From positions 1 to 64,000 of the forward strand of contig NZ_PGTO01000006.1 in assembly GCF_003284725.1 (NCBI RefSeq): 64,000 bases of DNA. The letters are read 5' to 3'. How positions within the stretch are numbered: position 1 is the stretch's first letter; every line of letters begins with the position of its first letter. The DNA comes from Paramagnetospirillum kuznetsovii (GTDB lineage Bacteria; Pseudomonadota; Alphaproteobacteria; Rhodospirillales; Magnetospirillaceae). The translations under genes and the position numbers were made by a program. The notes under the pieces were generated by a model. That model worked only from the letters and a program-made list of their open reading frames with translations, made no database searches and had not been told where the DNA came from. This document shows, piece after piece, positions 29,110 through 32,040 of this stretch.

Positions 29110-32040
29110 CTACCGCGTCACCCGATCCAGCAGGGTGACGATGGAGCGGTACGGCAGATCGGCGTGGTCGGCAAGTCCGATCTCGCAAGTCCGGTTGGAG
29201 GAATAGCCCGCCTCGCAGCCCTTCGGCACCTGATCGGCCAGTTTGCGGAGCGCGTGGTCGTTGAGTTCGGGATGGGTGAAGCCCTTGTCGCCCGCGAAGC
29301 CGCAGCAGCCGACGCCTTCGGGCGTCACCACCGTGGTGGCGCAGGCCTTGGCCAGGGCGGCCATCTTGTCGTCCAGGCCCATCTTGCGGGCGCCGCAATT
29401 GACGTGGACCAGCACCGGCTCCACCTGCTTGCGGGGATTCAAGCGCTGCAGCACGGCGTCGTGGAGGAATTCCACCGAATCCTGGACCTTGAGCCGCTCG
29501 CCCAGGAAGGTCTTCATCCTCCAGGTACAGGCCGAGGCGTCCATGACGATGGGCAGGCGGCCGTTGTCGCTGGCCTTGGCCAGGGCGGCTTCCAGCTCGG
29601 CGGCCTTGCGGTCGGCACTGGCCTGCAAGCCCTTGCTCTCGAAGGCCTGGCCGCAGCACAACCCGTCCACGCCTTCCGGCACCACGACGCGGTAACCGGC
29701 GCGTCCCAACACGCGGGTCATGACGGTGGGCAGCGAGTCCTTCTCCGGGTCGCCGACGGCCGGGCCCATGCTGCGCGCCGCGCAGGTGGGGAAATAGACC
29801 ACTGCGTCGCCGTCGGCGGCGCCGGGCGACAGGGTATAGGCGGCGGCGGTGGGCAGATGCTTGCCGATCTTGGGCACCAGACCGCGGGTCAGCTTGCGCG
29901 CCGCGCCCGCCATGGCGGCCATGACGCCGGGCCCGGCAACTCGGCTGACCAGCCCGGCGGCGCCCAGTCCAATTTTGGTGGCGATCATGGCGCCGCCGTA
30001 GTGGCGCTCCGCCCAGTCGCCAACCGAGCGGACGGACTCGCCCAGGCGACGGCCGCGCAAGCTCTTGGTCAGGCGGCCGGTTTCGATGCCTACCGGGCAG
30101 GCGGTGGCGCACAGACCGCAGGCGGCGCAGGTGTCGATGCCCTGATAATCGTAAAGGTGGCGCAGTTCGGCGGCGGGATCGCCGACAGCGGCGAGCCTGG
30201 AAATCTCGCGCCAGCTGGTGATGCGCTGGCGGGGCGACAGGGTCAGGCCGTGGCTGGGGCACATGCGCTCGCAGAATCCGCATTCGATGCAGGTATCCAC
30301 CAGCGCGTCGGCGGCGGGCAGCGGCTTCAGGTTTTCCAGATGGGCCTTGGGATTGGTGTCGAGGATGACGCCGGGATTGAGCAGGGTCTGGGGATCGAGC
30401 AGGTGCTTGATGTCCCACATCAGGGCGGTGGCCTCGGCGCCCCATTCCATTTCCACGAAGGGCGCCATGTTGCGCCCGGTGCCGTGCTCGGCCTTCAGAC
30501 TGCCGTCATACTTCTTGACCACCAGTTCGCAGACGTCGTCCATGAAGTTGGAATAACGCTCGACCTCTTCCTTGGAGCCGAAATCCTGGGTGAAGACGAA
30601 GTGCAGATTGCCGTCCAGGGCATGGCCGAAAATGATCGCCTCGTGATAGGCGTGCTTGCGGCACAGATGTTCCAGATCCACCGTGGCGTCGGCCAGCGAC
30701 TCGATGGGGAAGGCCACGTCCTCGATGATGACGGTGGTGCCCACCGGGCGCACCGCGCCCACCGCCGGGAACAGGCCTTTGCGGATCTTCCACAGCTTGC
30801 CGTATTCGTAGGCGTCATCGGTGAAGGCGGGGGCGAACAGGGTGGTGACGCCGCCCAGCACTTCTCCGATGGTCTTGATATTGGCGGCCAGTCCCTCGGC
30901 GGTCTCGGCGCGGGTCTCCACCAGCAGGGCGGTGACGCCCTCGGCCAGCCCGACGATCTGGGCCGGCATGCCGGGCTTGTCCTCCACCGAGCGCAGGGCG
31001 GCGCGGTCCATCAGCTCCACCGCCGAGACCGGCGAGGATTTCAGCAGCACCACGGCGCGGCAGGCCTCGGCGATATGGGGGAACAGCAGCAGGCCGCTGG
31101 CCTTGTGGGCGTGTTCGGGCACGGTGCGGTAGGTGATCTCGGCGATGAAGCCCAGGGTGCCCTCGGACCCGATCATCAGGTGTTGAAGAATGTCCAGCGG
31201 CTGGGTGAAATCCACCAGGGCGTTGAGGCTGTAGCCGGTGGTGTTCTTGATGGCGAATTTGCGTTTGATGCGGCTTGCCAGGGGCCCGTCGGCCCGAACC
31301 CGCTTGCCCATGTCGTCCAGCGCGGCCAGCAGCCCGGCATGGGAGGCCTGGAAGGCCTTGACGCTGTCGGGGTTGCCGGTATCGACCAGGGTGCCGTCGG
31401 CCAGGATCAGCCGCATGGAGGTCACGGTCTGGTAGGAATTGTCGGACGTGCCGCAGCACATGCCGCTGGCGTTGTTGGCGGCGATGCCGCCGATCTTGCA
31501 CGAATCGATGCTGGCCGGGTCGGGGCCGATCTTGCGGGCGAAGGCGGCGAGGCGGCGATTGGCCTCGGCGCCGATGACGCCCGGCTGCAGGCGGATGGCG
31601 CGCCCCTCTTGCTCGACCACCGCCTGGGTCCAGCCGTTGCCCAGGATCATCAGGACGGAATCGCTGACCGCCTGGCCCGACAGGGAGGTTCCGGCGGCGC
31701 GGAAGGTGACCGGGGCACCATGGCGGTGGCAGGCGGCCAGCACCGCCATGACCTCGGACTCGTCGGCCACTTCCACCACCACTTTGGGGACAAGGCGGTA
31801 GAAGCTGGCATCGGTGCCATAGGCGAGGCGGCGCAGCGGGTCGGTGATCAGGCGGTGCGACGGGACGATGCCCGCCAGCTCGAACAGCAGGGAGGAAGGC
31901 CCCCCACCCCAACCCCTCCCCACGGAGGGGGAGGGGCTATCAATGGCCCCCCCTCCCCTCGATGGGGAGGGGCTATCATTGGACTCCCCTCCCCTTGATG
32001 GGGAGGGGGCGGGGGTGGGGTGAGCCGCAACGCCAGTCAT
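29110..32040 (-). CDS. dld: FAD- and Fe-S-containing D-lactate dehydrogenase (Dld-II type)
   Basis: A 976-residue fusion of a GlcD-like FAD enzyme and a GlpC-like Fe-S subunit; it should oxidise D-lactate (or a similar 2-hydroxyacid) to the quinone pool. Order: FAD_binding_4 (~residues 75-250, with CKIGGIAANNASGMCCGTSD), FAD-oxidase C domain, two 4Fe-4S sites (CIECGFCERMCPS and CAACGLCATACPVG), then two CCG domains (CCGQAF, GCCGFAGDKGF). The ATG overlaps lutC by four bases. Residues 7-48 are encoded by an intergenic-type repeat (PSPSRGG units) inserted in frame before the conserved domain. No later ATG is available before the domain. Shewanella has a comparable lldP/dld-II/lldEFG locus. Confidence 0.92.
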   Translation of the reverse strand: MTGVAAHPTPAPSPSRGGESNDSPSPSRGGGAIDSPSPSVGRGWGGGPSSLLFELAGIVPSHRLITDPLRRLAYGTDASFYRLVPKVVVEVADESEVMAVLAACHRHGAPVTFRAAGTSLSGQAVSDSVLMILGNGWTQAVVEQEGRAIRLQPGVIGAEANRRLAAFARKIGPDPASIDSCKIGGIAANNASGMCCGTSDNSYQTVTSMRLILADGTLVDTGNPDSVKAFQASHAGLLAALDDMGKRVRADGPLASRIKRKFAIKNTTGYSLNALVDFTQPLDILQHLMIGSEGTLGFIAEITYRTVPEHAHKASGLLLFPHIAEACRAVVLLKSSPVSAVELMDRAALRSVEDKPGMPAQIVGLAEGVTALLVETRAETAEGLAANIKTIGEVLGGVTTLFAPAFTDDAYEYGKLWKIRKGLFPAVGAVRPVGTTVIIEDVAFPIESLADATVDLEHLCRKHAYHEAIIFGHALDGNLHFVFTQDFGSKEEVERYSNFMDDVCELVVKKYDGSLKAEHGTGRNMAPFVEMEWGAEATALMWDIKHLLDPQTLLNPGVILDTNPKAHLENLKPLPAADALVDTCIECGFCERMCPSHGLTLSPRQRITSWREISRLAAVGDPAAELRHLYDYQGIDTCAACGLCATACPVGIETGRLTKSLRGRRLGESVRSVGDWAERHYGGAMIATKIGLGAAGLVSRVAGPGVMAAMAGAARKLTRGLVPKIGKHLPTAAAYTLSPGAADGDAVVYFPTCAARSMGPAVGDPEKDSLPTVMTRVLGRAGYRVVVPEGVDGLCCGQAFESKGLQASADRKAAELEAALAKASDNGRLPIVMDASACTWRMKTFLGERLKVQDSVEFLHDAVLQRLNPRKQVEPVLVHVNCGARKMGLDDKMAALAKACATTVVTPEGVGCCGFAGDKGFTHPELNDHALRKLADQVPKGCEAGYSSNRTCEIGLADHADLPYRSIVTLLDRVTR
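31899..32022. repeat. CCCCTCCCC-type repeat element inside the dld coding region
   Basis: The ends are inverted (CCCACCCCAACCCCTCCCC at one end, GGGGAGGGGGCGGGGGTGGGG at the other). Internal palindromes of CCCCTCCCC-N4/5-GGGGAGGGG type are the same as those in the non-coding gaps at 60490 and 61537. Here the element lies within codons 7-48 of dld and keeps the frame. Confidence 0.85.

Follow-up and report, generated by a model that had tools for sequence, protein, structure and literature searches.

Near its 5′-end, the dld gene of the window (the whole 64,000-nucleotide stretch of DNA analysed here) contains a 123-nt, triplex-capable composite repeat that leaves the reading frame open, is absent from the dld genes of relatives and belongs to a family placed mainly at gene 3′-ends. 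The most probable explanation, to which we assign a probability of roughly 0.78, is that this insert represents one of many copies of a palindromic, triplex-type repeat, which landed past the lutC stop codon and is read in frame as the N-terminal tail of Dld.

Organisation of the lutC–dld junction

The junction comprises the following features:

29110–32040, minus strand: dld, with FAD_binding_4, FAD-oxidase_C, Fer4 and CCG domains; 976 aa including the element
32037–32693, minus strand: lutC, whose stop codon overlaps the dld start
31900–32022, minus strand: composite repeat element, 123 nt, phase 0, dld codons 7–47

The dld product is an FAD-binding and Fe-S D-lactate dehydrogenase-like protein that is 82–85% identical to the orthologs of 12 congeners. 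The gene was named from homology and operon context, none of the NCBIfam cut-offs being reached, and lutC was named from operon context, the NCBIfam search having returned no match. In reading order, dld consists of the ATG at 32040, six codons, the 123-nt element, and codon 48 on into the FAD domain, so that the element encodes 41 Pro/Ser/Gly/Arg-rich residues ahead of this domain. The original prediction had located the repeat and its PSPSRGG-type peptide correctly, and its coordinates needed only refinement to those given above; the ATGA overlap of lutC and dld that it described is present at 32040–32037.

The element contains three hairpins (31913–31936, 31950–31972 and 31986–32008), each of the form CCCCTCCCC-loop-GGGGAGGGG, and its outer tracts are CACCCCACCCCC and GGGGTTGGGGTGGGGGG. 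In the reading direction of dld, the hairpins start 28 bp from the lutC stop codon. The nonamer CCCCTCCCC occurred 20 times in the 64-kb window against 1.95 occurrences expected. Antisense to dld there is an open frame of 1181 aa (28453–31998, plus strand) which has the codon-position GC profile of a spurious frame, and two small overlapping genes at 27771–28341 (plus strand) resemble, by eye, a ParD/ParE toxin-antitoxin pair.

Absence of the element from relatives

A hairpin scan allowing up to two mismatches showed the dld element to be missing from 13/13 congeners with an ortholog and from 11/11 more distant dld loci, some of which have no lutC directly upstream. Congeners G004, G006 and G015, which gave weak matches only, were left out of this comparison. 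The original prediction had proposed an alignment of the dld N-termini of relatives; the element was found in 0/24 of their dld loci. The lutC/dld overlap is probably older than the insert, because most congeners show, by eye, ATGA or GTGA at the dld start. Without the element, the dld N-terminus would resemble those of G008 and G012, and we infer that the element arrived in one event. At locus L024 of G017, a member of another genus, a different inverted repeat was seen by eye just upstream of dld.

Copies and distribution

The window's own genome (G000) encoded 34 exact hairpins at 16 loci. The same type of element had been predicted in the gaps near 60490 and 61537, and a copy was identified in each:

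60489–60575, plus strand: intergenic copy with two hairpins (60503–60525 and 60541–60563)
61531–61696, plus strand: intergenic copy with four hairpins (61545–61683), its ends set by eye

Exact hairpins were present in four of the 16 congeners (13 in G011, two each in G001 and G002, one in G008) and in none of the other 12. The genome G020, from another genus, contained 80, and its genus mate G033 contained none. Across the class, matches were present in 28 of the 385 genomes sampled (own included), and few genera had high counts. A search with a 37-base pattern of one element end, which may omit records of the window's own genome, found 60 stretches, several of them metagenome bins; the hosts were Magnetospirillum sp. 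UT-4, Telmatospirillum, Devosia, Sphingomonas, Parasphingopyxis, Hyphomicrobium and a Sphingomonadales bin. The number of hairpins per array varied from 1 to 11. For the locus counts given below, the matches in G001 and G002 were kept out, the G008 locus (L093) was read yet uncounted, and L049 (C12:20682) was dropped as it had no hairpin with at most one mismatch.

Some variation in architecture was also observed. Genomes G242, G336 and G413 of genus g106 encoded a version of the hairpin, with a loop that was mostly CAA among the places listed, at 20–55 copies per genome, and G123 of the same genus had none. Loci L050–L086 of G020 showed a permuted order of hairpin A, a core near CGAACCGCGTCGGCG..GTCGCGGAAC and hairpin B. 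At L046 (4046–4184) and L044 (2921–3051) the spacers appeared by eye to be alike within a copy and unlike between copies, as if hairpin units had been tandemly amplified in place.

Triplex-motif architecture

The dld element was found to consist of two perfect 9-nt triplex motifs, one per strand and inverted, around a third hairpin:

31986–32020, plus strand: class II intrastrand-triplex motif, 9/9 triads, CCCCTCCCC-TTGAT-GGGGAGGGG-GCG-GGGGTGGGG
31950–31972, minus strand: middle hairpin, between both triplex motifs
31902–31936, minus strand: inverted second triplex motif, 9/9, CCCCTCCCC-CTCCGT-GGGGAGGGG-TT-GGGGTGGGG; it holds GTG codon 40

The dld copy is therefore triplex-capable by the class II purine-type criterion, under which the Y-R-reverse-Hoogsteen tracts must reach 8 nt and form valid triads. 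At least one motif of at least 8/9 was present in 15/16 copies in G000, 37/40 in G020 and 8/8 in G011, which gives 60/64 copies with a motif on one strand or both; no more than one was obtained per genome set from Markov shuffles. Tracts capable of forming a G-quadruplex, which are the same tracts as the triplex-capable ones, were present in 56/64 copies of the three genomes.

This layout resembles that of the BoxC/PIT/TM_ECO family, of which the literal TM_ECO pattern is CCCTCNCCC N3-6 GGGNGAGGG N3 GGGNGAGGG (PMC4666352). A search of the own genome revealed 15 exact copies of this pattern (control 0), one of them within the window, and no match at the dld copy:

45612–45645, minus strand: exact canonical TM_ECO/BoxC copy, intergenic

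Because the dld copy misses the literal pattern, its element is best described from its sequence as a putative GGGGAGGGG variant of the BoxC/PIT/TM_ECO family and not as a literal member. According to the available part of PMC4666352, the family shares with the element the class II layout (a C stem, a G stem and a G third strand, of 9 nt each and separated by short loops), the arrangement in inverted pairs, also found in the dld copy, and a copy number that is patchy among close relatives. The element also shares loop sequences with the exact TM_ECO copies in the same genome, several of which carry the element loops CTCGT, CTTGT and CTCCGT. It differs in that its stem is CCCCTCCCC, not CCCTCNCCC, and in having extra hairpins between its ends. 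In the available part of PMC4666352, E. coli K-12 is described as having 23 TM_ECO, always intergenic, with no set distance and no operon bias; by comparison the element is tied more closely to gene 3′-ends, and some of its copies, including that in dld, lie in coding sequence. All 15 canonical copies in the own genome were intergenic by custom gene calls (10 unidirectional, 4 convergent, 1 divergent, 0 in genes). Many of the canonical copies (45612–45645 and 14 other places, L178–L190) had, by eye, a second imperfect inverted copy nearby. An alphaproteobacterial repeat with in-frame copies is thereby linked to the BoxC/triplex-motif family, whose best-studied relative is reported, in that same available part, only from intergenic positions.

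Placement at gene 3′-ends

The 64 loci of three genomes (16 in G000, 40 in G020 and 8 in G011) were classified as 40 unidirectional, 16 convergent, 0 divergent, 1 edge and 7 gene-overlapping. Among element-free control gaps 33/109 were divergent, compared with 0/56 classified copies. This deficit was significant when pooled (Fisher, P 2e-7) and in G020 (P 2.6e-6), and neither in G000 (P 0.28) nor in G011 (P 0.50) alone. The nearest gene 3′-end lay at a median distance of 20, 10 and 18.5 bp in the three genomes. Genes were called with a custom codon-model script, not a standard caller, and for G020 the counts cover the first 50 hairpins listed out of 80, in 37 stretches, the place C4:56–78 at a contig end being omitted. 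Called genes were overlapped by 3/16 own-genome loci (one N-terminal, one internal and one C-terminal), set against a window coding fraction of 0.93, and by 7/64 loci across the three genomes, two of these by 13 bases.

A further 44 loci in other genomes, from which UT-4 loci repeating G020 loci had been removed by sequence, comprised 16 unidirectional, 12 convergent, 2 divergent, 7 edge and 7 overlapping ones, the overlap of L104 being a single base; for L106/L121, L111 and L119, which offered too little training sequence, the G020 gene model was used. A 3′-end placement rule like that of the element is described for REPs in the available part of PMC3733652.

Ordinary 3′-end placement combined with the lutC/dld overlap is the simplest account of the dld case. 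The element is inside dld because the spot 28 bp past the lutC stop codon is, owing to the ATGA overlap, already dld. A repeat copy would have settled a few tens of bases past the lutC stop codon, like its sister copies, and the overlap would have put this landing spot at dld codon 7. By chance the copy measures 123 nt and lacks stop codons in the needed frame, so that dld would have remained open, and initiation at the native ATG would add a probably disordered 41-residue Pro/Ser/Gly/Arg-rich segment before the FAD domain. The junction thus offers a concrete case of an intergenic repeat turned protein, in which the usual 3′-end rule applies and the operon overlap does the rest.

Comparison with other repeat classes

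The kind of event proposed here is already known, because PMC3733652 and PMC2759123 report intragenic repeats; intragenic REPs and Rickettsia palindromic elements are the precedents. As described in the available part of PMC3733652, GTAG/CGTC REPs are likewise palindromes at gene 3′-ends, mostly unidirectional or convergent, with a minority in frame in genes; N-terminal REPs and a REP-bearing uvrA are on record there. The dld copy differs from these REPs in having neither GTAG, which is absent from both strands of the 123-nt element, nor CGTC, and its stem CCCCTCCCC is without the complementary AT in the first and second stem positions that the same text gives as almost invariable in CGTC REPs. 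Within the hairpin arrays, GTAG was found in 1/16, 6/40 and 0/8 copies of G000, G020 and G011, and CGTC in 7/16, 28/40 and 0/8, with CGTCAAG in four G000 copies. On the basis of its stem and tag, the dld copy was not assigned to the CGTC/GTAG REPs, though CGTC occurs in other copies.

The element family also has no clear link to a RAYT. The RAYT profile (Y1_Tnp, PF01797) gave a weak match in G000, approximately 19 kb from the nearest copy, one match in G020 and none in G011. Across 60 genomes (own included) 23 had a PF01797 match, of which 18 had no exact hairpin; a RAYT thus seems an unlikely mobiliser, as its presence does not track that of the element. No transposase linked to the element was found. 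A target-site duplication, looked for as a test for MITEs, was absent from 13/14 delimited composites (G000 and G011), the other showing a 3-bp match. Rfam returned 29 matches up to E 1 for positions 31700–32300, all under the gathering score.

Rickettsia palindromic elements resemble the element in being palindromic repeats inside ORFs and differ from it by description, as the present family mostly avoids genes and has no readability bias. The enterobacterial RU-1/2/3 repeats are small mobile repeats recorded in frame in genes; by their description in the available part of PMC2759123 they are MITE-like units of 103–168 bp from other hosts. In the open-licence literature, no description of the element or of translated triplex-motif repeats was found, the sequence search extending to the 40 of 837 matches listed and the sources to their available parts.

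In-frame copies and readability

Further copies of the element were found within genes. In the own genome, a NuoE/NuoF-like fusion has an in-frame copy in its interdomain linker, which was not seen in 11 congeners; a pure insertion was dropped as a description of this case, the alignment suggesting that the linker was replaced, not lengthened. The C-terminal end of an alpha/beta hydrolase in the same genome is an element copy. In the UvrA of Sphingomonas sp. URHD0057, the element lies in a 49-residue segment (237–285) that is missing from the best solved UvrA, 2r6f, and a Devosia bin encodes an in-frame copy in an indolepyruvate-oxidoreductase beta-type gene. Additional N- or C-terminal cases are L066, L067, L123, L080, L133, L147 and L112, some by a few codons. 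In-frame insertion into conserved genes thus recurs in other alphaproteobacteria as a minority (gene overlap at 7/44 loci of the other-genome set, some by a few bases only), and the copies in the NuoE/NuoF-like fusion, UvrA and indolepyruvate oxidoreductase suggest that such DNA can be translated.

These cases, including the N-terminal ones at L066 and L123, could be taken to mean that the element is a specialised protein-modifying repeat like the Rickettsia palindromic elements, selected for in-frame N-terminal extensions, and the original prediction had spoken of a possible general way to gain such extensions, which the data do not support. We consider such selection very improbable. Open frames did not exceed shuffle means in G000 (42/96 vs 48.1), G020 (94/240 vs 119.1) or G011 (25/48 vs 27.5), falling below them in each. 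The composite pattern delimited 14 copies at the 24 G000 and G011 loci, whose lengths were spread evenly, 5:5:4, over the three phases modulo 3, and gene overlap was as rare as described above. Selection for readable frames was rejected on these grounds, and readability is not a design feature of the repeat. A broader proposal, that conserved alphaproteobacterial enzymes (Dld, NuoE/NuoF-like, UvrA, IorB-like) have repeatedly gained translated segments from triplex-capable BoxC-class repeats and that the Dld N-terminus is an unstable, expandable tail, is put forward very tentatively and is probably incorrect as a whole. Under it, strains may differ in the length of the encoded segment, because triplex motifs reportedly destabilise DNA and copies differ in their number of hairpins, from 1 to 11 in one array.

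Start of dld translation and alternative explanations

The dld ATG at 32040 is preceded by a strong Shine-Dalgarno sequence (-8.5 kcal/mol). An in-frame GTG (codon 40, 31923–31921) lies inside the last hairpin and has no Shine-Dalgarno sequence, and in-frame CTG codons are found at positions 51 and 52. Of the predicted lack of any start after the repeat, the part concerning ATG held, there being none; the in-frame GTG at codon 40 and the downstream CTG codons had been overlooked. The accompanying claim that the repeat must be translated holds for some or all of it, except in the case of initiation at a CTG. We infer from the sequence that the repeat would be translated from the native ATG as an N-terminal segment of Dld. 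In an AlphaFold model of middling quality (mean pLDDT 72.9, pTM 0.59), residues 1–47 had pLDDT <50, a value partly forced since almost no alignment rows cover the tail, and the first helix began at residue 48. The 41-residue tail is probably disordered, and it would appear to be neutral.

An alternative is that dld starts inside or after the element, at GTG 40 or CTG 51/52, with a G-run as the ribosome site and the repeat as a structured leader. The codon-model gene finder placed the start at GTG 31923, and the element codons score as non-coding (mean log-odds -0.39 vs +0.54 for codons 49–200). For the G-run ahead of CTG 51, pairing was calculated at -8.6 kcal/mol, a protein begun late would equal those of relatives in length, and the available part of PMC3733652 cautions that many REPs placed at N-termini may, for such start-codon reasons, be extragenic. 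However, the GTG lacks a Shine-Dalgarno sequence and sits in a GC-rich hairpin, and the native ATG, its Shine-Dalgarno sequence and the stop overlap have all been retained, as in most congeners (by eye). CTG start codons are rare. Overall, a late start appears doubtful. Somewhat less doubtful, though still unlikely, is that the element is kept for a tuning effect of its hairpins, triplex or G-quadruplex on the operon, either by holding dld lower than lutABC or by protecting the upstream mRNA end, which would be compatible with translation. The computed folding of the junction RNA (-112.1 kcal/mol, z -4.25), the 3′-end placement shared with REPs (available part of PMC3733652) and the G-quadruplex-capable tracts of most copies are in line with such a role, but no copy was present at the lutC–dld junction of any relative examined, and PIT elements block polymerase in vitro yet show no promoter, terminator or in vivo effect in the available part of PMC4666352. 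Misassembly can occur at repeats, but an assembly artefact is scarcely credible here, as the junction has the usual lutC–dld gene order and the element occupies 123 bp within a 215-kb contig with the reading frame intact.

Insertion of a repeat copy past the lutC stop codon, with translation from the native ATG, is thus preferred. The case also carries a warning for annotation, in that start codons beside such repeats are unreliable. At L066 of G020 (6684–6782), an element immediately precedes a cytochrome-c-like gene, whose start codon it may provide.
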